A DNA stretch of 59,629 nucleotides, from the NCBI GenBank assembly GCA_012960465.1, contig DUBF01000209.1, forward strand, positions 1 through 59,629, read 5' to 3'. The position numbers and the translations under genes were made by a program. Positions within the stretch are counted from its first letter, which is position 1. Every line of letters begins with the position of its first letter. The notes below the pieces were generated by a model. It worked only from the letters and a program-made list of their open reading frames with translations, was not told the origin of the DNA and searched no databases. Source of the DNA: Rhodospirillales bacterium (GTDB lineage: Bacteria; Pseudomonadota; Alphaproteobacteria; Rhodospirillales; UBA2165). Shown here in pieces: positions 3,925 to 47,349 of the stretch.

Positions 3925-4623
3925 ATGTTAGAGAACTTAACAGATACCACGGAAGTAAATATAAAACCAGACAATGGTTCAGTTCTTATACGGGATGGGG
4001 TTTATGAAAGGATTCGTGCCGATATTCTAGCCTGTGTATTATCGCCGGGTTCTCGTATCTTTGAGAATGATCTGGCTAAACGTTACAATGTAAGTAAGTC
4101 GCCAGTTCGGGATGCGCTTTTGCGCCTGCAAGAACAGGGATTAATTGAGGTGCTCCCGCGTAAAGGTTATCTTATCCGACCCATCTCTATAGGAGATGCG
4201 CACGATCTATATGAAATGCGTTTACTGCTTGAGAAATCTAGTGTACGTCGCGCATGTGACGAAGCAACTGATGAGGATTTGGCTTCGTTGGATCAGTTTC
4301 GTTCTGTAGATAATGGCGATTTAGTTCACTGGGTAATGTATAATCGAAAATTTCATCGTCGGATAACAGAACTTTCAGGTAACATGCGAATGGCAAAAAT
4401 TACAGCTGAAGTTATAGACCAATTTGATCGTTTGACTTTTGTTGGCGTATTAAACGCGCCGAGCGCTGAAGCCTCTGAAAAATTTGTTGCCGAACATGGG
4501 GAAATTATTGACGCGCTGCAAGCTAGAGATCGTTCAAAAGTGACTAGTTTGATTACCAAACATATTACAAAATCAAAAAAAAGGTTGTTCTCTGTTCTTG
4601 GTAATCAGCCAATTATTGAGTGA
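3925..4623 (+). CDS. GntR family transcriptional regulator, FCD (FadR-C) domain
   Basis: 232 residues. A winged helix at about 20-90 carries the GntR signature (LAKRYNVSKSPVRDALLRLQEQGLI, then the wing LPRKGYLIRP), followed by an all-helical FCD ligand domain (about 95-225), which in this subfamily usually binds a carboxylate through a metal site. I chose the ATG at 3925 because AGAGG lies 5 bases upstream; a longer frame opens at a TTG at 3868. It is only 41 bases ahead of the molybdenum hydroxylase genes on the same strand, so it probably controls them, with their substrate or product as the effector. Confidence 0.85.
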   Translation: MLENLTDTTEVNIKPDNGSVLIRDGVYERIRADILACVLSPGSRIFENDLAKRYNVSKSPVRDALLRLQEQGLIEVLPRKGYLIRPISIGDAHDLYEMRLLLEKSSVRRACDEATDEDLASLDQFRSVDNGDLVHWVMYNRKFHRRITELSGNMRMAKITAEVIDQFDRLTFVGVLNAPSAEASEKFVAEHGEIIDALQARDRSKVTSLITKHITKSKKRLFSVLGNQPIIE

Positions 4624-4664: not shown

Positions 4665-5534
4665 TTGAAACCGTTTGATTTTATTCAACCCGCAACCATT
4701 GATGCAGCTATTTTGGCGCTGGCTGAATATAGCCCTAATGTGCGTATTCTAAATGGTGGCACTGATTGTCTCGTTGAGCTTAAGCATGTGGCCCAATCCC
4801 CAGGCGTTGTTATCGATGTATCTAGGTTACAGGGCTTGAAAGGTATCGAGATTGTTGATGCAGGCCTGCGTATCGGCGCGGGTGTAACTCACACGGAAAT
4901 TATGGCTGATCCACTCATCAAGGAACATGTACCGGCGATGATCGATGCCGCACATACAGTGGGGGCTGTGCAAACTCGCAACCTTGGAACGCTTGGTGGT
5001 AATCTTGTCACTTGTGTCCCTTCAATGGATAGCGGACCAACACTATTAGCCTTGGATGCAGACGTTACGATATTGGGTGCAAAGGGGACCCGTCAATCTA
5101 GTCTTACTGATTTTTTTGTGGCTCCGCGTAAGACATCGTTGGAGCCAGATGAATTATTACTTGAAATCATTATTCCAAAAGAAAACCTCGGTAAACCGGC
5201 GAGTTTTATAAAATTTGGTCTGAGAAAAGGTCAAGCCCTAGCTCTGGTAAATGCCGCTTCAGCACTTTGGGTTGAAGGTAATAAATTTAAAGATGTTCGT
5301 ATAGCTCTGGGAGCTGTTGCACCTGTGGTTATTCGTGCTTCGAAAGCTGAAGCCCTTCTCGAAGGACAGTCGGTTTCTGAAGGTTTGATTCAAGAAGCGG
5401 CAAAAATAGCCGTTGGTGAAGCAAAGCCGATCGATGATTTTAGAGCTTCGAAAGAATACCGTAATGATTTGATTGAAGTTGGTACTCGACGTACGCTGCA
5501 AGCGGCACTGGGTGCTTCTAATATACAAAGTTAA
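4665..5534 (+). CDS. Molybdenum hydroxylase FAD-binding subunit (NdhF/CoxM-like)
   Basis: 289 residues, normal for the medium subunit of xanthine dehydrogenase/CO dehydrogenase family enzymes. It carries FAD and passes electrons from the 2Fe-2S clusters to the external acceptor. The two flavin pyrophosphate motifs are visible: NGGTD at residues 30-34 and TLGGN at 109-113. The C-terminal CO_deh_flav_C domain covers about 180-285. The start is a TTG with GAGGAAGG 6 bases upstream. The 2Fe-2S gene follows after 10 bases, then the two molybdopterin frames, giving the order F-S-L-M seen in bacterial nicotinate dehydrogenase. The substrate is unknown. Confidence 0.9.
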   Translation: MKPFDFIQPATIDAAILALAEYSPNVRILNGGTDCLVELKHVAQSPGVVIDVSRLQGLKGIEIVDAGLRIGAGVTHTEIMADPLIKEHVPAMIDAAHTVGAVQTRNLGTLGGNLVTCVPSMDSGPTLLALDADVTILGAKGTRQSSLTDFFVAPRKTSLEPDELLLEIIIPKENLGKPASFIKFGLRKGQALALVNAASALWVEGNKFKDVRIALGAVAPVVIRASKAEALLEGQSVSEGLIQEAAKIAVGEAKPIDDFRASKEYRNDLIEVGTRRTLQAALGASNIQS

Positions 5535-5544
5535 AGAGGAAAAA

Positions 5545-6045
5545 ATGACAGATGTAACACTCATAGTGAATGGTGAAACGAAAACAGCTTCGGTACCACC
5601 AGAAACTACACTTCTTAAAATGCTGAGGGAAGATCTAAACTATACCGGATCCAAACTTGGCTGTGATGTTGGTGATTGCGGTGCCTGTACAGTGCTGGTC
5701 GATGGATTGGCGGTGAATGCTTGTTTGATGTTGGCAGGGCAGGCTGAGGGTAAAGAAATATTGACGATTGAAGGGCTTTCGACTCTAGAAAAATATCATC
5801 CAATTCAAAAGGCTTTTGAAGATGTTGCTGCGTTGCAATGCGGTTTTTGTGGGCCCGGAATGATTATGACAACTAAAGCATTGATAGATCAAGATGAGGA
5901 CGTGACAAGACAAAATATCAAAGATGCATTGTCTGGTAATCTATGTAGATGCACCGGCTATACTAAGATCATAGAGGGTGTGATTGACGCATATCAGGAA
6001 ATTACGGGTAAAAAATTGCCTGAAATCAAGCCGCGTGCAGCATAA
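5545..6045 (+). CDS. Molybdenum hydroxylase [2Fe-2S] subunit (NdhS/CoxS-like)
   Basis: 166-residue small subunit with two [2Fe-2S] clusters. The N-terminal ferredoxin-like domain has Cys40, Cys45, Cys48 and Cys60 (C-x4-C-x2-C-x11-C). The C-terminal helical domain has Cys99, Cys102, Cys134 and Cys136 (CGFC and CRC). All eight ligands are present. I chose the ATG at 5545 because AGAGGA is 5 bases upstream and the family start MTDVTLIVNG is reproduced; the frame is open further upstream. It relays electrons from the Mo centre to the FAD subunit and is translated between its two partners in one operon. Confidence 0.95.
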   Translation: MTDVTLIVNGETKTASVPPETTLLKMLREDLNYTGSKLGCDVGDCGACTVLVDGLAVNACLMLAGQAEGKEILTIEGLSTLEKYHPIQKAFEDVAALQCGFCGPGMIMTTKALIDQDEDVTRQNIKDALSGNLCRCTGYTKIIEGVIDAYQEITGKKLPEIKPRAA

Positions 6046-6060
6046 GGTAAGGAAATAAAA

Positions 6061-7455
6061 ATGGCAGATGAAGTTAAAGTAGCAGATAAAACCGAGACCG
6101 TAGAAAGCCTAAGGAAAATTGATGATAATTTACGGTTGCCCTCAGTTCCAGAGAAAAGGGTTTTCCCAAAAGAAATTGATGTATCTGCAGCTCGCATGCA
6201 AACGCCTGCGGTTGGGCAGAGAGCTACCCGTCCAGATGGCCGCATGCATGGTTTAGGCCAGACAAAATATATTGACGATATGTTCTTTCCTGGAATGATC
6301 CATGCTAAAATAAAACGGGCTGGTATTGCTCATGCAAAGATTAAAAGTATTGATGTTTCTGAGGCTGAGAAAATGCCAGGTGTTATGGCAACTTTAATAG
6401 GATCTGAAATTCCCGTTAATAGCTTTGGCCCCTCTTTACAAGATCAACCTCTCCTTGCTGATGACGTGGTGCGACATGCTGGAGATGGCGTGGCCGCCGT
6501 CGCGGCAGTGACTGAGCAGCAAGCCTTGGATGCGCTTGAAAAAATCAAGATTGTATATGAAGAGCTTCCAAATGTTTTTGATCCGGTCGAGGCTATGAAA
6601 GATGACGCATATAAGATACACAACAATGAAAGTAATATTTATGCATCAAAAACAATTATGAAAGGGGATGTTGAGAAAGGGTTTGCTGATTCTGATTTTA
6701 TTTTTGAGCGAACATTTACCACTCAAATGGTCGAGCATGTTCCAATGGAGCCTCATGCTTCAATTGGTGAATGGGATGCAAATGGACGTGTAACACTGCA
6801 TTCAAGTCTTGGTCGTATTACCCTTGGTCGAGCGGATATTTCTCGGACCCTTGAGATGCCGATTAATCGAATTCGCATTATTGCGACTGTTGTTGGCGGC
6901 AATTTTGGTGGTAAGAACGAAATAACCACTGAACCAATTGTTGCGTTGTTATCAAAAAAAACGGGTCGCCCGGTTAAATGTGTTTTTACTCGAGAAGATG
7001 AATTTATTTCCTCTACGACCCGCCATCCATTTGTTATGGAATATAAAACCGGTATGTCTAAAGAAGGTAAAATTATGGCGCGCAAAGTGCGCTTAATATG
7101 CGATGGTGGCGCCTATTGTTCTTGGTCTGAGACTACCTTAGGTAAAGCATGCATATTGTCTGCCGGCCCGTATAATATTGAAAATCTGCATGTTGATGCG
7201 TATGCCGTATACACGACCAAAACTATGACCGGTGCCATGCGTGGTTTTGGTGCACCACAAGTGTGCTTTGCCTATGAATCTCATATGGATGACATGGCAG
7301 CAGAACTCGGAATTGAGCCATTAGAAATCCGTTTGAAGAATGCATTTAACGAAGGATCAGCAAGTCCGACAGGTCAGGTATTGGAGGCTGTTGTAGTCAA
7401 AGATTCTCTGGAAATGGCGACCGAACGATTTGGTTGGAAGGAGTGGCGGAAATGA
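6061..7455 (+). CDS. Mo-hydroxylase molybdopterin subunit, N-terminal half (NdhL/XdhB-like)
   Basis: 464 residues covering only the first half of the usual ~780-residue large subunit. After a charged N-terminal extension (about 1-55) come the a/b hammerhead (about 60-170) and the first molybdopterin domain (about 200-440). FGGK at 282-285 and MRGFG at 393-397 are the loops that approach the Mo centre in xanthine dehydrogenase. The AYRCSFR loop of CO dehydrogenase is absent, so this is an aldehyde/purine/N-heterocycle hydroxylase type. The frame stops at a TGA overlapping the ATG of the next gene (ATGA, 7452-7455), at the boundary between the two Mo domains. It could be a natural split subunit or a one-base deletion in the AAA run just before the stop. 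Confidence 0.85.
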   Translation: MADEVKVADKTETVESLRKIDDNLRLPSVPEKRVFPKEIDVSAARMQTPAVGQRATRPDGRMHGLGQTKYIDDMFFPGMIHAKIKRAGIAHAKIKSIDVSEAEKMPGVMATLIGSEIPVNSFGPSLQDQPLLADDVVRHAGDGVAAVAAVTEQQALDALEKIKIVYEELPNVFDPVEAMKDDAYKIHNNESNIYASKTIMKGDVEKGFADSDFIFERTFTTQMVEHVPMEPHASIGEWDANGRVTLHSSLGRITLGRADISRTLEMPINRIRIIATVVGGNFGGKNEITTEPIVALLSKKTGRPVKCVFTREDEFISSTTRHPFVMEYKTGMSKEGKIMARKVRLICDGGAYCSWSETTLGKACILSAGPYNIENLHVDAYAVYTTKTMTGAMRGFGAPQVCFAYESHMDDMAAELGIEPLEIRLKNAFNEGSASPTGQVLEAVVVKDSLEMATERFGWKEWRK

Positions 7456-8474
7456 TCCGGCGAGGTAAAGGTGTTGGCTGTATGTGGTATCCTATCGGGT
7501 TTACCGTTTTAGCTAATCCGAGCGCAGCAACTGTTAAAGTAAATGAAGATGGAACTGCGACGCTGTTGACAGGTACTGTTGAGACAGGACAAGGTTCATT
7601 GACTGTACTGGCCCAAATCGCTGCAGAGGAGCTGGGTGTTTCAACCGATGATATTCACGTTGTTTCGGCAGATACGGATACGACACCAATGGATACAGGC
7701 GCGATAGCTAGCCGTACAACCTATGTAACTGGAAATGCAATCAAATTAGCAGCTGCCAATGCGAAGCAAATCTTATTTGAGGTGGCAGCCCCTTTATTGG
7801 AGGTACAGCCAAATCAGTTAGAAGCAGTTGATCGAAAAATACAGGTTCAATACTTCCCCCAACGGTGTTTACCCATTGCTGATGTGGCTCTTCAGGCGCA
7901 GTTCGTCATGGGCCGACCTCCAATTGGCAGTGCTTCATATAATCCGCCAACCGTTGGTATGGACCCAGAAACGGGCCAAGGTAAACCTTTCTCGACCTAT
8001 GTCTATGCAACGCAATGCGCTGAAGTTGAGGTCGATGATGAGACTGGTGAAGTAGATGTTATTTATATGTCAGCGGCCCATGATTGTGGAACAGCAATAA
8101 ATCCGATGCTGGTTGAAGGTCAAATTGAGGGTGGTATCTCAATGGGTATAGGCTTTGCCCTACAGGAGGAAATGTTGTTTGACGATAAAGGTCTGCAGCT
8201 TAACCCTAATTTGACAAATTATATAATGCCGACCAGTTTAGATATGCCGGAAATCGATGTTGATATTGTTGAGAACTTCGATCCAACTGGACCGTTTGGG
8301 GCTAAAGGTGTTGGTGAGCCAACGGCTGTCCCTACAGCCGCTGCCATTTGCAATGCAATTTTTGATGCAGTTGGTGTTAGGATTACCTCTTTACCGGCAA
8401 CAGCCGAAAAAGTACTCCGTGCTATAAAAGAGAAGAATGATAATGACCAAAAGATTTTACCCGCCGCAGAGTAA
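7452..8474 (+). CDS. Mo-hydroxylase molybdopterin subunit, C-terminal half (NdhM-like)
   Basis: 340 residues forming the second molybdopterin domain. GQG at residues 46-48 and GVGEP with the catalytic Glu289 are present, so the active-site base is here while other Mo-site loops are in the preceding frame; both products are needed for activity. The ATG overlaps the upstream stop (ATGA) and has AAGGAG (7438-7443) 8 bases ahead, a textbook coupled start; an in-frame TTG at 7434 is also possible. Eubacterium barkeri nicotinate dehydrogenase has the same division into NdhL and NdhM after FAD and FeS genes. If not natural, the two halves are one gene broken by a frameshift. Confidence 0.82.
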   Translation: MIRRGKGVGCMWYPIGFTVLANPSAATVKVNEDGTATLLTGTVETGQGSLTVLAQIAAEELGVSTDDIHVVSADTDTTPMDTGAIASRTTYVTGNAIKLAAANAKQILFEVAAPLLEVQPNQLEAVDRKIQVQYFPQRCLPIADVALQAQFVMGRPPIGSASYNPPTVGMDPETGQGKPFSTYVYATQCAEVEVDDETGEVDVIYMSAAHDCGTAINPMLVEGQIEGGISMGIGFALQEEMLFDDKGLQLNPNLTNYIMPTSLDMPEIDVDIVENFDPTGPFGAKGVGEPTAVPTAAAICNAIFDAVGVRITSLPATAEKVLRAIKEKNDNDQKILPAAE

Positions 8475-8492: not shown

Positions 8493-10097
8493 ATGAAAGA
8501 TTTTGATTATATAATTATTGGGGCAGGCTCTGCTGGCTGTGTGTTGGCCAATCGTTTGAGTTCAGATTCAAAAAATAGCGTTCTTGTCTTAGAAGCTGGT
8601 GGTAAAGATTCGAGCCTACTATTTCATATTCCCACCGGTACTGCCAAAATTTGGAATAATCCCAAATATAATTGGTCCTATATGTCTGAGCCAGAACCTC
8701 ACATGAATGACCGCCGCCTATACCATCCACGCGGCAAAGTTTTGGGGGGATCTTCTACGATCAACATGACTGCCTATGTGCGAGGCAATTCCGGAGATTA
8801 TGATCGCTGGGGGCAAATGGGTCTCACGGACTGGAGCTATGAAAAAGTACTGCCGTATTTTAAAAAATCAGAAAACTATCTGACAGAAAAAAGCGAAATT
8901 CGAGGTCAGGATGGACCGATGAAAACTGCGATCTCCCCAACCAAAGACAAAATATTTGATGCGTTCCGGTCGTCAGGTGAAGCGCTCGGCTATAGCTATC
9001 GAGGTGATTATAACGGTAGTGAACAAGAAGGCATAGCTCGTATGCAATTCACAACTGCTGAAGGCAGGCGTCAAAGTACTGCTGTGGCCTTTCTTCACCC
9101 CGCTTTGAAGCGCACTAATCTTACCGCCATTACCAAGGCCCATGTTCAGCGCATTGTATTTGAAGGCAATAAGGCGGTTGGAATAGAATATTTAAAAAAC
9201 GGTCAAAGGTATACCGTGAACGCGAATAAAGAGGTAATCCTATCGTGTGGAACATATAATTCTGCGCAACTATTATTACTTTCAGGAATTGGACCTGCTG
9301 ATCAGCTTCGGGAAAATGGGGTCGAGGTGATATCAGACTGTAAAAATGTGGGGTCGAATTTACAAGATCATCCAAGTGTCATGATTGAATGTGAACGCAA
9401 AACGAGGTCCGTTTTTCAAGAGAATTTAAGATTTGATCGTCTGGTTTTCAATATGGCTCGCGCACAGTTTTTTAAGTCTGGACCAGCCACGCATCCGTTG
9501 GGGTTTGGCACTGGGTTTGTAAAAAGCCGACCTGAGTTGGCATTGCCGGATATTCAGTTATTTTTTCGTTTATTTTCCGTACAATCCCACGAATGGTTCC
9601 CGTTCGTGAAAAAACCTGGACCAACAGGAGTAGGACTACTTGCCTGTCATCTTCGTCCCGAAGCGCGTGGAACGGTTAGCTTGGCATCAGGTAACCCAAA
9701 TGATGCTCCGAAGATAATTAATAACTTTTTTGCTAGCGATATGGATCGGCAGGCAATCCGCCAAGGATTTAAGATTGAGCGTTCTATCATGTCTCAATCT
9801 GCCTTTAGTGAACATCTTGGCGCAGAAATAACGCCCGGCAAAGAGGTTCAAAGCGATAACGAAATAGATGCATTTATCCGTGAAACAGCAATGACGGTCT
9901 TTCATCCGATAGGTACGTGCCGAATGGGGACAGATGAAGCCTCGGTTGTTGATCCAAAACTTAAGGTGCGCGGGTGTGAAAATCTTCGAGTGGTGGATGC
10001 ATCCGTTATGCCTGATCTTGTTGGTGGAAATATTAATGCGCCCGTAATTATGATCGCTGAAAAAGGAGCTGATATGGTGTTGGCCACAAATTCTTAG
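8493..10097 (+). CDS. GMC family FAD-dependent oxidoreductase
   Basis: 534 residues, typical of the glucose-methanol-choline family (choline dehydrogenase, alcohol and sugar dehydrogenases). The FAD motif GAGSAG is at 10-15, the GMC signature HPRGKVLGGSSTIN near 75-88, and the C-terminal catalytic pair is His471 (FHPIGTCRMG) with Asn515 (GGNINAP). There is no signal peptide, so it is cytoplasmic. It follows the Mo-hydroxylase operon by 18 bases and is likely co-transcribed, which suggests that it forms or removes an aldehyde or alcohol handled by the hydroxylase. The ATG at 8493 has only a weak ribosome site. It ends exactly where the convergent sulfurtransferase ends. Confidence 0.92.
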   Translation: MKDFDYIIIGAGSAGCVLANRLSSDSKNSVLVLEAGGKDSSLLFHIPTGTAKIWNNPKYNWSYMSEPEPHMNDRRLYHPRGKVLGGSSTINMTAYVRGNSGDYDRWGQMGLTDWSYEKVLPYFKKSENYLTEKSEIRGQDGPMKTAISPTKDKIFDAFRSSGEALGYSYRGDYNGSEQEGIARMQFTTAEGRRQSTAVAFLHPALKRTNLTAITKAHVQRIVFEGNKAVGIEYLKNGQRYTVNANKEVILSCGTYNSAQLLLLSGIGPADQLRENGVEVISDCKNVGSNLQDHPSVMIECERKTRSVFQENLRFDRLVFNMARAQFFKSGPATHPLGFGTGFVKSRPELALPDIQLFFRLFSVQSHEWFPFVKKPGPTGVGLLACHLRPEARGTVSLASGNPNDAPKIINNFFASDMDRQAIRQGFKIERSIMSQSAFSEHLGAEITPGKEVQSDNEIDAFIRETAMTVFHPIGTCRMGTDEASVVDPKLKVRGCENLRVVDASVMPDLVGGNINAPVIMIAEKGADMVLATNS

Positions 10098-11097: not shown

Positions 11098-12111
11098 TTA
11101 ACCATCATGGTCTAAAATAATTTTTATACAATTGCTATCGCCACCGTCTAGCATATCTAACGCTTTATTTATTTGGTTTAGCCCAAGCGTATGAGTAATC
11201 AGAGGCTTAAGGTCAACCACACCCCGTTGAACAAAATCAATGCTAGCCGGGTAGTCTTCAGGTTTGGCAACCCGAGCATTTACAACTTGGATTTCTTTGA
11301 AATACAAATTGTAAAAAGGAAGTTCCCCTTTGGTTTGGGTGTATATACCGAAGGGTAGAATGCGCCCTCCCAATCTAACAAGTTCAATTGCTTCGGCTAA
11401 GATTGATAGTTGGCCGACAGATTCAATGACTAGATCAACACCACCTTTTTCTCCCGTAACTTTGAGGACATCACTTTTTAAATTTTCATTTGGAGCAAAA
11501 GTGAAATCTGCCCCCAGATCTTCTGCAAGTTCACGTTTCCATTTTGAACGCGTCACGCCAATAACCGGATATGCACCATGTGCTTTGGCTAATTGGACAT
11601 GAAGAAGGCCAGTCACGCCGAGGCCATAAACCAAAACCGCCTCACCTGGGAAAATTTTAGCTTTTCGCTGCGCGTGTAAGCAAGTCGTCATAGGCTGAAT
11701 TAGGGGTGCAATTTCAGATTTTAAGTTGTTAGGTAAAGCGTGTATGTTACGGCTCGGAGCTACCATGAAATCGGCAAAACCACCTTCAACATCTCGACCG
11801 ATTAATCCACCATTTGGACAGAGGTGGCTTTGACCGTCTCGACAGTTATAGCATGCCCCGCAATAATAAGCAGGATCAACAATTATTGGAGTTCCTGGAG
11901 CGAGGTCTCCACCGGAGACCACTTCGCCAACCGACTCGTGACCTAAGATGCGGGGGTAGTTAACCGGAATACCTCCTTGGAATATTTTAAGATCAGTCCC
12001 ACATATACCTGACTTGGTAACCTTAATTAATGTTTCATCTGAACTAATATCTGGAACCTTAACTTTCTGGTTTGCGACTTCTCTTGGCGCTGTCAGAACC
12101 ATCGCTTGCAT
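11098..12111 (-). CDS. Zinc-dependent alcohol dehydrogenase (MDR family)
   Basis: 337 residues with a GroES-like domain followed by a Rossmann domain. The catalytic zinc ligands are Cys37 (GICGTD), His58 and Glu59 (GHE). The structural zinc site has four cysteines at 84, 87, 90 and 98. The nucleotide-binding segment YGLGVTGLLHVQLAKAHG is near 165-182. Overall it resembles sorbitol/threonine dehydrogenase-type polyol or hydroxy-acid dehydrogenases. AGGA is 8 bases before the ATG. It lies 14 bases after the 2-hydroxyacid dehydrogenase and is certainly in its operon, so both probably act on one carbon source. Confidence 0.9.
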   Translation of the reverse strand: MQAMVLTAPREVANQKVKVPDISSDETLIKVTKSGICGTDLKIFQGGIPVNYPRILGHESVGEVVSGGDLAPGTPIIVDPAYYCGACYNCRDGQSHLCPNGGLIGRDVEGGFADFMVAPSRNIHALPNNLKSEIAPLIQPMTTCLHAQRKAKIFPGEAVLVYGLGVTGLLHVQLAKAHGAYPVIGVTRSKWKRELAEDLGADFTFAPNENLKSDVLKVTGEKGGVDLVIESVGQLSILAEAIELVRLGGRILPFGIYTQTKGELPFYNLYFKEIQVVNARVAKPEDYPASIDFVQRGVVDLKPLITHTLGLNQINKALDMLDGGDSNCIKIILDHDG

Positions 12112-38256: not shown

Positions 38257-40617
38257 TCAGCCACATTTAGAATAAGCGCAACTAGTACATGTATCGCAAT
38301 TTTCTTGCCGGATTAGACCGGCTTGACCGCATTTTGGGCACTGTCGGAACCTATTGTCGTTTTCTTTAATTTCATGGTGTAGGTTCATGACCTGAGGTTT
38401 GGTTAAAATTTCATCTTCAGCTAGCGCACCCGGTGCTTTTATAAATCCAATTGTTACCATGTGTTCTTCGAGAACTGAGCCAATAGCAGCAAGCAGGGAT
38501 GGTATGTAACGTCCTTTAAACCATTGGCCGCCTCTAGGATCAAATACTGCTTTGAGCTCTTCGACAACAAAAGATACATCACCACCCCGTCTAAATACGG
38601 CTGAAATCATGCGAGTAAGGGCCACTGACCAGGCAAAATGCTCAGTATTCTTTGAATTAATAAAAACTTCAAAGGGCCTACGCCGCCCATCTTGAATCAC
38701 ATCGTTGATGGTGATGTAAAGAGCATGTTCGCTCTCCGGCCAAAGAATTTTATATGTAGCGCCTTCAAGGGCTTCAGGTCTATCGAGTGGGCGCGTTAAA
38801 TAATGGAGTATACCGCTACTACCCAAATCTTGTGGAATAGAGTTAGTCCCGGCTATCGCTTCTTTTGGCAATTCTAGAGGAAGTTCCGTTTGTTTTTTTG
38901 CTTCATCGAATTTTTTCTTTGTGTCCTTGGTTTCTAGTACTGCTCCCGTTATATCATTGGGCCGATAAGTTGTGCAGCTCTTGCAGCCAAGTTCGTAAGC
39001 TTGAATGTAGATGTCCTTGAAATTATCAAAATCTATATTTTCGGGGCAATTGATAGTCTTTGAAATTGAGCTGTCGATAAATTTTTGGGCCGCAGCTTGT
39101 ATTACGAGATGATCTTTTGGGGATAGTTCCTGAGCATCAACGAAAGCACTAGTTAGAGGGGTGTTTTCTCCTTTGAGACGTCGAAATAATTGATAGGCAT
39201 AATCAGTTACGTCTTCATCCCGCCGATTACCGTCGGGCATCAAAATGTGTCGTGTATAGGAAAAACTAAAAACGGGCTCGAGGCCAGAAGAGACATTATT
39301 TGCGAATAGAGAGATTGTACCCGTTGGTGCTATCGATGTTAGTAAAGAGTTTCGAATACCAAATTTTCTGATTGCCGTCGAAATATCTTCGTCTAAATTT
39401 TGGATAGCCTCACTGGAAACATATGCCGCTTTATCAAAAAGTGGAAATGCCCCTTTTTCTTTGGCCAGCTCAATGGAGGCTAAATAGGACGCACGTTGTA
39501 TTGTCTTTAGCCAAATCTCAGTATGTCGGACGGATTCGGTTGATCCGTAGCGTACGTTGCACATAATAAATGCATCGGCAAGCCCAGTAATGCCCAATCC
39601 GATACGGCGTTTAGCCTTGGCTTCTTTTTTCTGCTCTTTTAAAGGAAAGCGTGAGGCATCTATTGTGTTATCTAACATTCTTACCGACGTACTCACTATT
39701 TTAGCCAATTTTTTTATGTCTAATTTCGCATTATCCGTGAATGGATCATTAATAAACTGTGTTAGATTGATTGACCCTAGGAGGCATGCGCCATAGGGCG
39801 GCAACGGCTGTTCACCGCAAGGGTTTGTTCCGTGAATTGTTTCACAATAGGAAATGGGATTTAGTCGGTTTATTCGGTCTATAAAAATTACGCCTGGTTC
39901 CGCATATGCATATGTTGCCTGCATAATTCTTTCCCAAAGTTCGCGCGCTTTAACGCTGCGGAAAACCGAACCATCAAAAACTAACTCCCAATTTGAGTCA
40001 TCTTTAACTGCTTGCATAAAGTCATCAGAAATAAGTACTGAAAGATTAAACATTCGAAGCCGCCCGGGGTCTTGTTTTGCCGTTATAAAGTTCTCAATAT
40101 CGGGGTGGTCGCAACGCATTACAGCCATCATCGCTCCCCTACGAGAACCTGCACTCATAATTGTCCGGCACATAGCATCCCAGACGTCCATAAAAGAGAG
40201 GGGGCCAGATGCGTCAGCGCCAACACCTTTTACGGGGGATCCTTTTGGGCGAAGTGTAGAAAAATCATATCCTATGCCGCCTCCTTGCTGCATAGTAAGA
40301 GCTGCTTCCCGCAGACTTTCAAATATACCCGACATATCATCCGGTATATCACCCATTACAAAACAGTTGAAAAGCGTAATATCTCGCTCCGTTCCAGCAC
40401 CCGACATTATTCGACCTGCCGGTAAAAATTTGAACTCCCTCAGAGCTTGGTAGAATTTCTCGGTGTGAATGTCAGGGTTAGTTTCTACTTGAGCTAAGGC
40501 TGAACTAACGCGAGAAAAGGTATCATCAATCGTTTTATCTATTGCGACACCATCGGTAGTCTTTAGGCGATACTTCATATCCCAAATTTGTTGCGAAATT
40601 GCGGCTATTGATGCCAT
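38257..40617 (-). CDS. nrdJ: Adenosylcobalamin-dependent ribonucleotide reductase (class II)
   Basis: 786 residues. Reduces ribonucleotides to deoxyribonucleotides with a thiyl radical generated from adenosylcobalamin, without an R2 subunit or oxygen. The active-site Cys85 (LFNCFVMG) and Cys267 with its neighbours (NPCGEQPL), the APTGTIS loop and the GCKSCTTYRPN C-terminal region are intact, followed by a zinc-ribbon tail (CPKCGQAG and two further CxxC-type pairs) that is typical of this NrdJ subgroup. The ATG at 40617 is preferred over a TTG two codons earlier. It is monocistronic and is the only ribonucleotide reductase in the window. Confidence 0.96.
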   Translation of the reverse strand: MASIAAISQQIWDMKYRLKTTDGVAIDKTIDDTFSRVSSALAQVETNPDIHTEKFYQALREFKFLPAGRIMSGAGTERDITLFNCFVMGDIPDDMSGIFESLREAALTMQQGGGIGYDFSTLRPKGSPVKGVGADASGPLSFMDVWDAMCRTIMSAGSRRGAMMAVMRCDHPDIENFITAKQDPGRLRMFNLSVLISDDFMQAVKDDSNWELVFDGSVFRSVKARELWERIMQATYAYAEPGVIFIDRINRLNPISYCETIHGTNPCGEQPLPPYGACLLGSINLTQFINDPFTDNAKLDIKKLAKIVSTSVRMLDNTIDASRFPLKEQKKEAKAKRRIGLGITGLADAFIMCNVRYGSTESVRHTEIWLKTIQRASYLASIELAKEKGAFPLFDKAAYVSSEAIQNLDEDISTAIRKFGIRNSLLTSIAPTGTISLFANNVSSGLEPVFSFSYTRHILMPDGNRRDEDVTDYAYQLFRRLKGENTPLTSAFVDAQELSPKDHLVIQAAAQKFIDSSISKTINCPENIDFDNFKDIYIQAYELGCKSCTTYRPNDITGAVLETKDTKKKFDEAKKQTELPLELPKEAIAGTNSIPQDLGSSGILHYLTRPLDRPEALEGATYKILWPESEHALYITINDVIQDGRRRPFEVFINSKNTEHFAWSVALTRMISAVFRRGGDVSFVVEELKAVFDPRGGQWFKGRYIPSLLAAIGSVLEEHMVTIGFIKAPGALAEDEILTKPQVMNLHHEIKENDNRFRQCPKCGQAGLIRQENCDTCTSCAYSKCG

Positions 40618-41077
40618 GGCCAAAGTACACCCTGTGATTATTTATTAACTCAATAAAAAATTGAATTGAATTGTGCCTCAGACAAACTAGAAAATCAATA
40701 AAGTTCTTGTTTTGTTTCCCCCGTTATTCAATAATTACTCCCAAATATATTGATATTTAACACATTGATTATGCATTATTTTTTAAGTTCTTAACACTTT
40801 ACACAGGGTTAACAAAAAAAATACGTGGATAAATGCTAAAAAGGCAACACCATTTTTAGGCAAGTTTCTAGTTTCATATAGAATGGGAGGGCAATTGAAG
40901 AAAATATAACTTGAGATTGTTTTTTGGTCCTTGTGACTAGATTGCACGCTCCTCGATATTACGTAGACCGGCATTTTTGTTAATTCTATCGCTCAATCTT
41001 CCCAATGGGATGGGATAGTCATTTTCTCGTGGGTTTAAGCACCTGGGAAGCTTGAATTTAGCCTATTTGACTTAGTT
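40618..41077. other. Non-coding region upstream of nrdJ
   Basis: 460 bases, very AT-rich, without a credible gene. It should contain the nrdJ promoter. I looked for an NrdR box pair and for a cobalamin riboswitch core and saw neither. One DnaA-box-like sequence (complement of GTGGATAAA, near 40834) occurs singly and is probably chance. Confidence 0.4.
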
Positions 41078-44988: not shown

Positions 44989-47349
44989 GTGGCAAAATCC
45001 CTAAAAATCAACGTTATTGGCGGTGGACCCGGTGGACTTTACTTCTCTATATTAATGAAACTCGCAAATCCAATGCACCAAATAACGGTATTTGAGCAAA
45101 ATAAACCAGATGATACTTTCGGTTTTGGTGTTGTTTTCTCAGATGAAACTCTTGAGAATTTCATGGGTCAAGATCCAATAACCTATCATGAAATTAAAAA
45201 TCAATTTGCGTATTGGGATCAAATAGAGGTCCGCTATCGTGGAGGGCGGAGTCGCTCAGGAGGGCATGGATTTGCTGGTATGGCTCGGATGACACTTTTG
45301 AATATTTTCCGAAAACGCTGTCTGGATCTCGGTGTTGAAATTAATTACGAAACTGTAATTAAAGACCTTAAGAAATTACAGGATGCCGACCTGGTTTTGG
45401 CAGCAGATGGTGTAAATAGTTTTGCCCGCGAAAGTCTTAAAGTTCATTTGAAACCTACAATAGATATGAGAAAAACTAAATTTGTATGGTTAGGGACTAC
45501 ACAGAAATTTGATGCATTTACTTTTATTTTTAAAGAAAATGAACATGGTTGGTTTTACAATCATGCCTACCAATATGGTCAAGGGGTTGGTAAGGCGGCT
45601 TCCACATGGATTTTGGAAACTCATGAAGATACATGGAAAAAAGCCGGTTTAGATCGCGCAGATGAAGATCAAACTATTGCGTATTTTGAGGCACTATTCG
45701 CGGAGGAGTTGGATGGCCATCGCCTAATTTCGAACAAATCTATATGGCGAAATTTTCCAGTAATATCTGCTGAAAAATGGTCCCATGAAAATATTGTGCT
45801 AATTGGTGATGCTATCCACACCGCACAATTTTCGATTGGTTCAGGTACTAAGATTGCAATGGAAGATGCAATTGCCCTTTCTGATGCTGTTTTGAATGCA
45901 TGTGACGAAAAAAGAAGTATTTTAGAAGCATTACGCGCTTATGAATCCGAGCGAAAAGATGTAATCTCTAGACAGCAACGAACGGCGATGGTGAGCCTTA
46001 GCTGGTATGAAAATGCTAGACGTTATAATGGTTTGTCACTTAAGCAATATGCATTTAATTTTTTAAGCCGAAATAAATCGGTCACATATGAAAATTTAGC
46101 TTTGCGTGACCCTGATTATGGTGCTGATATTAACCAGTGGTATGCCGAGTTGGTACGGGACAATCTCGGGTTTGATTTACCGACCGAAAATCCGCCACCT
46201 CCCATGTTTACTCCTTATAAGGTTGGTAATCTTACTTTGCAAAATAGGGTGGTTGTTGCTCCAATGTGCCAATATTCGGCCGACGACGGAACCCCAACGG
46301 ATTGGCAATTAGTCCATCTTGGTAATTTTGCCAAAGGCGGCGCCGGCTTGGTCATTACGGAAATGACAAATGTGTCGCCAGAAGGGCGCATTAGCCATAA
46401 GTGCACTGGTATGTACAAACCTGAACATATTCCTGCCTGGAAACGTGTTGTGGATTTTGTTCATGAGAATTCTAAATCGAAGATTTGTGTACAATTAGGT
46501 CATGCCGGACGAAAGGCATCCTGCAATGTTGGTTGGGTTGGAGGAGGCTCACCCCTTAAAGATGACGGGTGGTCTATACTAGCAGCCTCGCCAATTCCTT
46601 TTACCCCTAAAAGCCAAGTTCCAAAAGAGATGGATCGAGCCGATATGGATAAAGTGCGTGATGATTATGTCCGATCAGCCACCATGGCCACTGAAGCAGG
46701 TTTTGATATGATCGAATTTCATGGTGCCCACGGTTATCTGCTTTCAAGTTTTATCTCACCAATTAGCAACATCCGGACCGATGAATATGGTGGATCTATT
46801 AAAAATAGGATGAGGTTCCCAATAGAGGTTTTGAGGGCTGTTCGAGCCGTTTGGCCGGCAGATAAACCTATTTCTGTTCGTATTTCTGCTGAAGACTGGG
46901 TCGGTGAGAGGGGTAATTCGGGCGATGATGCCGTTGAAATCGCAAAGTTGTTTTATGATAATGGTGCAGATATAATACATGTATCAGCGGGTCAGACATC
47001 CTCAGAGCAAAAACCAATTTATGGGAGAATGTTTCAGGCTCACTTGAGTGAGCAGGTGAGACTAGAAGCGGGTATTCCTACCATGACTGTGGGCAATATC
47101 ACAACAGCGGATCAGGTAAATACAATTTTGGCGGCTGGACGAGCTGACTTGGTTACTCTTGCGCGAACTCACCTCAGCAATCCGTTTTTTACTCTGCATG
47201 CTGCGGCCCATTACAACTGGGAGGATCAGTATTGGCCAGACCAGTATCTTCGAGGTAAGGATCAAGCATTTAAGGAAGCGTCGGCTGAGAATGTTCGACA
47301 ATCTGAGTTGTTGAGAGCTAATAAGCCAGTCTCTCATGCGGAATATTAA
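44989..47349 (+). CDS. Bifunctional salicylyl-CoA 5-hydroxylase / flavin oxidoreductase
   Basis: 786-residue fusion. The N-terminal FAD monooxygenase (about 1-390) has GGGPGG at 11-16 and the second FAD motif LIGDAIHT near 274-281, as in salicylyl-CoA 5-hydroxylase, which makes gentisyl-CoA. The C-terminal old-yellow-enzyme/NADH:flavin oxidoreductase domain (about 406-770) has FTPYKVGNLTLQNRVVVAPM, the His pair in HGAHGYLLSSF, and TVGNITTADQV. The start is a GTG with GGAG 6 bases upstream. It sits beside an acyl-CoA dehydrogenase and an SDR, as in other aromatic acyl-CoA clusters, but the CoA ligase and thioesterase are absent here. Confidence 0.9.
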   Translation: MAKSLKINVIGGGPGGLYFSILMKLANPMHQITVFEQNKPDDTFGFGVVFSDETLENFMGQDPITYHEIKNQFAYWDQIEVRYRGGRSRSGGHGFAGMARMTLLNIFRKRCLDLGVEINYETVIKDLKKLQDADLVLAADGVNSFARESLKVHLKPTIDMRKTKFVWLGTTQKFDAFTFIFKENEHGWFYNHAYQYGQGVGKAASTWILETHEDTWKKAGLDRADEDQTIAYFEALFAEELDGHRLISNKSIWRNFPVISAEKWSHENIVLIGDAIHTAQFSIGSGTKIAMEDAIALSDAVLNACDEKRSILEALRAYESERKDVISRQQRTAMVSLSWYENARRYNGLSLKQYAFNFLSRNKSVTYENLALRDPDYGADINQWYAELVRDNLGFDLPTENPPPPMFTPYKVGNLTLQNRVVVAPMCQYSADDGTPTDWQLVHLGNFAKGGAGLVITEMTNVSPEGRISHKCTGMYKPEHIPAWKRVVDFVHENSKSKICVQLGHAGRKASCNVGWVGGGSPLKDDGWSILAASPIPFTPKSQVPKEMDRADMDKVRDDYVRSATMATEAGFDMIEFHGAHGYLLSSFISPISNIRTDEYGGSIKNRMRFPIEVLRAVRAVWPADKPISVRISAEDWVGERGNSGDDAVEIAKLFYDNGADIIHVSAGQTSSEQKPIYGRMFQAHLSEQVRLEAGIPTMTVGNITTADQVNTILAAGRADLVTLARTHLSNPFFTLHAAAHYNWEDQYWPDQYLRGKDQAFKEASAENVRQSELLRANKPVSHAEY

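Follow-up and report, generated by a model that had tools for sequence, protein, structure and literature searches.

Is the catalytic subunit of this molybdenum hydroxylase made as two polypeptides, or is an ordinary gene made to look like two by a lost base? The question is raised by an operon in the window (the whole stretch of DNA that was analysed, 59,629 nucleotides from a Rhodospirillales bacterium), in which the molybdenum (Mo) subunit is spread over two adjoining frames, L and M. The comparisons described here make it very probable that two real polypeptides make up the Mo subunit. The enzyme would then belong to the xanthine oxidase family of molybdenum hydroxylases and consist of four chains, the FAD, 2Fe-2S, L and M subunits.

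Layout of the operon and its molybdenum subunit

The genes in and around the operon, with the matches on which their names rest, are as follows.

3925..4623, + strand: GntR/FCD regulator, upstream of the operon (Pfam FCD and GntR; position of the start codon uncertain)
4665..5534, + strand: F, FAD subunit, NdhF-like (FAD_binding_5 and CO_deh_flav_C; top PDB match 3hrd_C, narrowly)
5545..6045, + strand: S, 2Fe-2S subunit (Fer2 and Fer2_2; top PDB match 4zoh_C, with 3hrd_D sixth)
6061..7455, + strand: L, first half of the Mo subunit, 464 aa (hammerhead, Ald_Xan_dh_C, and MoCoBD_1; top PDB match 3hrd_A)
7438..7443, + strand: AAGGAG, likely ribosome site of M, in Lys-Glu codons of L, 8 bases 5' of the ATG (codon-choice tests)
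7452..7455, + strand: ATGA, shared by the start codon of M and the stop codon of L (sequence; geometry compared across loci)
7452..8474, + strand: M, second half of the Mo subunit, 340 aa (MoCoBD_2; top PDB match 3hrd_B)
8493..10097, + strand: GMC oxidoreductase, choline dehydrogenase-like, 3' of M, putative operon member (Pfam)
11098..12111, - strand: Zn-dependent medium-chain dehydrogenase (cluster c1; relatives recur near related loci)

The sequence-only reading had described two frames with complementary motifs, and this description holds. L and M are each a complete open frame on the + strand, in the order F-S-L-M (by open reading frames and Pfam), with FGGK (residues 282-285) and MRGFG (393-397) in L and GQG (46-48) and GVGEP (286-290) in M; the ATGA and the AAGGAG are likewise seen in the sequence. 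Pfam finds all the domains expected of a xanthine oxidase-type enzyme (hammerhead, MoCoBD_1 and MoCoBD_2), as well as the FAD and 2Fe-2S partner genes. The cut had been placed exactly between the two molybdopterin domains; it does lie near their boundary, but by the Pfam bounds it falls within the MoCoBD_2 model, some 22 positions from its start. The MoCoBD_1 match ends at residue 428 of L, the MoCoBD_2 match starts at residue 2 of M, which is profile position 23 of 283, and the tail of L (429-464) probably carries the counterpart of the start of the second domain. With the E. coli-type XdhA models, L stops at 427-430 and M picks up at 437-440, and consequently little is missing between the two.

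Each half falls far below the cut-offs of the 13 NCBIfam equivalog models that were matched (XdhA, HcrA, CoxL, glyceraldehyde dehydrogenase and others), cut-offs that are set for whole subunits. The summed bits of L and M come to about 614 for XdhA NF043082 (cut-off 780) and to 617 for HcrA TIGR03194 (cut-off 994.55). The HcrA (4-hydroxybenzoyl-CoA reductase, 1rm6) and XdhA-type enzymes have the same domains and fold as L plus M, but their Mo subunit is one continuous chain, whereas that of the window is two.

An error of sequencing or assembly, in which a base lost from an AAA run splits an ordinary gene, would be in keeping with the AAA run that precedes the stop of L. It would also agree with the rest of the genome, where 13 other MoCoBD_2 places are found, all in open frames of at least 723 aa (two of them share one frame on contig C94, giving 12 genes). 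The relatives of the locus decide the matter.

The junction in related loci

Relatives are encoded by 97 stretches of public genomes; the best 80, some of them copies or near-copies, were retained. Among these best 80 of 97 loci, 77 are split, only two are fused in frame (L091 and L102), and one (L067) is without upstream sequence, its contig starting inside M. Thus, close homologues are far from being continuous genes as a rule, and the proposed single-base deletion in the AAA run is refuted. The junctions in the 77 split loci are ATGA in 58, TAATG in seven, GTGA in four, and other arrangements in eight, with gaps of 2, 4, 5, 8 or 28 bases; the last is probably wrong, as the +28 spacing of L106 is a likely script artefact and its junction contains ATGA. 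TGA, TAA and TAG stop codons and ATG and GTG start codons all occur across the split loci. Because the junctions are so varied, neither an error common to all loci nor a frameshift conserved among them can account for the split. A lost base is almost certainly not the explanation, given the differing overlaps, gaps, stops and starts of these loci and the enrichment of AAGGAG at the junction described below; the split appears to be an old working design.

A search at the order level (E 1e-90) gave a match in 22 of 297 genomes, one of them the window's, at 23 places, 20 of which (again with the window) are split and three fused (L027, L029 and L030); this set overlaps with that of the 80 loci. 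A phylum-wide search (E 1e-75) gave a match in 2 of 398 genomes, the window's being one. The reading of the enzyme as NdhLM-type holds, as described below, but the split extends well beyond this genome and is the rule in a large clade. Relative to L031, dN/dS is 0.031 (L) and 0.019 (M); besides these two comparisons, that with M of L036 was usable, other pairs being saturated or containing N codons. The M part of the fused members is about 73-79% identical to M of the window.

Several relatives are of interest in their own right. L032 and L033 are apparently one 67,001-base contig, filed under both a Rhodospirillaceae and a Gammaproteobacteria bin, and L054 and L081 come from bins titled Chitinophaga pinensis and Bordetella parapertussis, titles that are taken here at face value. 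One or two TGA codons lie inside the frames of relatives at G843:C4:30827-31816, G692:C59:93481-94449 and G827:C50:119259-120218, which are candidates for decayed genes, errors or recoding.

A GWKE sequence, followed by a few further residues, closes L in many loci. Dereplication reduced 70 L genes to 52 distinct ones, 23 of which have GWKE near the end, and in 19 of these 23 the Lys-Glu codons are AAGGAG, versus 7.5 expected from the codon use of each gene. None of 100,000 simulations reached so high a value, a result that overstates the certainty because the rows are related. Lys-Glu pairs elsewhere in the same genes, used as a control, have no such excess (AAGGAG in 24 of 81, versus 31.7 expected). 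With copies included, the counts are 29 of 33 rows before dereplication (9.4 expected) and 8 of 8 among the low-G+C rows (0.54 expected). Given this codon choice, M very likely initiates by itself, and an independent start of M is strongly supported. In fused genes, the same codons read CAAGAA (L091), AAAGAG (L102) and AAGGAA (L030); the loss of AAGGAG from the fused members is a weak contrast, since L091 and L102 retain purine-rich stretches nearby. Nonetheless, AAGGAG appears to be retained where M needs a start of its own. In this arrangement, the final codons of L would double as the Shine-Dalgarno sequence from which M is translated, and the overlap of start and stop suggests that initiation of M is coupled to the end of L.

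A programmed ribosomal frameshift would instead fuse L and M into a single chain, and the 4-base overlap of the frames and the AAA before the stop could be read as signs of it. Such a mechanism is very improbable, as spacings of -4, -1, +2, +4, +5 and +8 leave no single shift that fits all loci, the sequences before the stop vary between loci, and M retains a ribosome site.

Likeness to nicotinate dehydrogenase and a possible substrate class

The design of a Mo subunit in two chains is already known. According to PMC10331938, the nicotinate dehydrogenase of Eubacterium barkeri has four subunits, NdhF, NdhS, NdhL and NdhM, with the Mo subunit in two chains. The F-S-L-M order seen in the window had been said to match that of E. 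barkeri, a likeness that extends to the order in which the gene names, as opposed to a gene map, are given in that review. The assignment to the NdhLM type has been borne out by a wide margin: the top PDB match of L is 3hrd_A (NdhL; E 1.3e-83, runner-up 1rm6_A at 3.1e-60), and that of M is 3hrd_B (NdhM; E 9.1e-88, runner-up 7e-55). Residues 2-327 of M align to 2-327 of 3hrd_B, and consequently both M chains start at the same residue; the match of L ends 8 residues short of its own end and 11 short of that of NdhL. Thus, in sequence and position, the Mo subunit of the window is cut at the same place as NdhL/NdhM. The F subunit is also nearest to its E. barkeri counterpart, by a small margin, which brings the top PDB matches to 3hrd to three subunits, L, M and F. 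As a point of difference, the S subunit scores higher with other enzymes than with NdhS.

L and M were aligned separately, with 51 rows each, as a joint alignment of fused, L and M sequences had put L rows on the M half. In all 51 L rows, FGGK and M393 to G397 are invariant, as are C10 to T18 and E289 in the 51 M rows. E289, within GVGEP, is presumably the catalytic glutamate. The active-site loop of E. barkeri is AFRGFG (PMC8305194), for which the window has AMRGFG. By homology with NdhL and NdhM, L and M would assemble into one Mo pocket, to which L would contribute the FGGK and MRGFG loops and M the WY.IG motif and the GVGEP glutamate. A predicted model of L (pLDDT 77.5, pTM 0.72) has 3hrd_A as its best match (E 1.6e-45, TM 0.76). 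The model is uncertain at residues 1-66, 226-229, 278-286 and 390-394; the last two of these stretches overlap two loops, FGGK and MRGFG, that are expected to face M. The model of M is poor (pLDDT 62.8), with 3hrd_B as its first match at a TM of only 0.40.

It might be supposed from the F, S, L, M arrangement and from the 3hrd matches of L, M and F that the enzyme is nicotinate dehydrogenase proper. This is unlikely. Identity in structure-based alignments is only 36% to NdhL and 44% to NdhM. Furthermore, yqeB (TIGR03309), a marker of the selenium-cofactor trait, was not found in the 98.78% complete genome (the same search on 14 control genomes gave three matches, one above cut-off), and no gene of the nicotinate pathway was recognised among the representatives of neighbour clusters that were scanned.

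The neighbours of the related loci suggest, weakly, the catabolism of a small organic compound. Genes for one subfamily of Zn-dependent dehydrogenase, 56-67% identical to that of L085, were counted in 15 of the best 80 of 97 loci, L085 among them. In 11 loci the gene has the orientation of the operon and is no more than about 210 bases from one of its members, and in at least four (L046, L078, L082 and L106) it is located between S and L. The Zn-dependent dehydrogenase of the window is on the opposite strand and belongs to a different subfamily from this operonic one; its own subfamily, at 53-79% identity, is represented in seven further loci, of which two are copies. A member of the first subfamily, 57% identical, is encoded elsewhere in the window's genome. 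The operon of Phaeobacter includes genes for a zinc dehydrogenase, a tripartite carboxylate transporter, a TPP enzyme and an aldehyde dehydrogenase. Other clusters that recur are a D-2-hydroxyacid dehydrogenase, a rhodanese, a Gfo/Idh/MocA oxidoreductase, DUF1330, an ABC transporter and TctC, names that rest on Pfam or on family matches below equivalog cut-offs, for only some of the representatives. The neighbour counts are rough because antisense frames displaced real genes in G+C-rich loci (c0, c2, c3). From these related loci, on which the argument depends, it may tentatively be proposed, at somewhat less than even confidence, that the substrate is not nicotinate but a small compound of the alcohol, aldehyde or carboxylate type, on which a Zn-dependent dehydrogenase also acts.

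Closer to the Mo genes, the regulator cluster (c4) comprises 13 loci, the window among them, and lies 5' of the F gene in most. The GMC oxidoreductase scores barely above the cut-off of an NCBIfam subfamily model and below that of betA, and its cluster (c24) comprises three loci including the window. Elsewhere in the same genome (L162, contig C135, 389-6305), a Zn-dependent dehydrogenase of the operonic type, identified by match, lies beside genes that by eye resemble a racemase/maleate isomerase, a cupin and a TctCAB transporter; no Mo gene was noticed among the 14 frames listed there. Within the window, 44989-47349 comes near the model for a bifunctional salicylyl-CoA 5-hydroxylase/oxidoreductase (1067.2 bits, barely below the cut-off of 1078), and 38257-40623 on the minus strand encodes an adenosylcobalamin-dependent ribonucleotide reductase, above the NrdJ_Z cut-off.

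Age of the split

Trees of 61, 42 and 30 rows were built with a "quick" method and contain long branches. The 42-row tree is the 61-row set minus nine fused paralogs of the window's genome and ten split rows, and the 30-row tree uses 30 of the 61; L139 and L143 entered as stop-free stretches, with a TGA in frame at both places. A clade that holds the window and spans Pseudomonadota, Acidobacteriota and Actinomycetota is supported at 100, 100 and 99 in the 61-, 42- and 30-row trees, and within it the split Actinomycetota rows branch from all other members (98, 94 and 87). Two places inside this clade are occupied by fused members, L157/L029 and L156, and a grouping of its 23 split rows that leaves these out is rejected (p-AU 0.00024, 30-row tree), with at least two changes needed. 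Because the fused members nest within split ones, the split is ancestral in this clade and fusion derived, a few members having re-fused their genes in at least two separate events. In 199 genomes from the phylum of G690 (taken from L071, titled Terriglobia), relatives are 38-49% identical and mostly lie in long frames of fused size.

Near the window clade are 3hrd, the Phaeobacter/G611 type, the split L153, and the fused L139 and L144. On plasmid NZ_CP080276 of Phaeobacter piscinae and in G611, M is a separate gene, 45-46% identical to that of the window, but in Phaeobacter the FeS protein and L form one chain where the window has separate genes, and in both the tail of L is about 40 residues longer. 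The Phaeobacter FeS-L chain and M occupy 4106-7053 of L111 (NZ_CP080276.1), adjoining a zinc dehydrogenase and a tripartite tricarboxylate transporter; G611 is a close relative of this locus (86%).

It is a possibility deserving some weight, if the lesser one, that the split of the window clade arose apart from that of E. barkeri, though long ago. A single clade of all split forms (3hrd included) plus the three inner fused rows is rejected (AU p 0.0028, 42-row tree), and the likeness to the E. barkeri split is consequently limited to sequence and position. Moreover, fused relatives lie just outside the window clade at 45-49% identity (L143-L146), about equally near as the split ones there. Against convergence, L ends and M starts within a few residues of the ends of NdhL and NdhM, and an M start with RGKG.G.MWY.IG is common to the window clade and 3hrd. 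(The MWY.IG start also occurs in the fused L139; the variants are SWYGIA in Phaeobacter, SWHGIG in L144 and IEYPTG in L153, and no WY was seen in the other fused rows.) Split forms at 45-46% identity, those of Phaeobacter and G611, are also found just outside the clade, and a single older split with later re-fusions in L139 and L144 fits a 27-row clade that includes these two (support 92, 42-row tree). Beyond the window clade, the data agree with a single older split followed by several re-fusions, or else with repeated splitting.

The literature matches listed, from a search with most subscription journals outside its scope, hold nothing on the wide clade, the re-fusions or the embedded ribosome site. 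On balance, it is slightly favoured that the locus belongs to an undescribed and widespread clade of NdhLM type that acts on something other than nicotinate; the two-chain pocket of this clade would predate the spread over three phyla, at least two lineages would have re-fused the genes, and the split itself would be selected, as the ribosome site kept inside the coding end of L would indicate. If so, the single clostridial case of NdhL/NdhM would become a general and old way to build a Mo-hydroxylase site across two chains. It also serves as a warning that Mo-subunit genes that appear truncated or frameshifted can be intact. Furthermore, the natural fused and split versions allow a direct comparison; one genome (G184) carries a split copy (L019) and a fused copy (L030) together.
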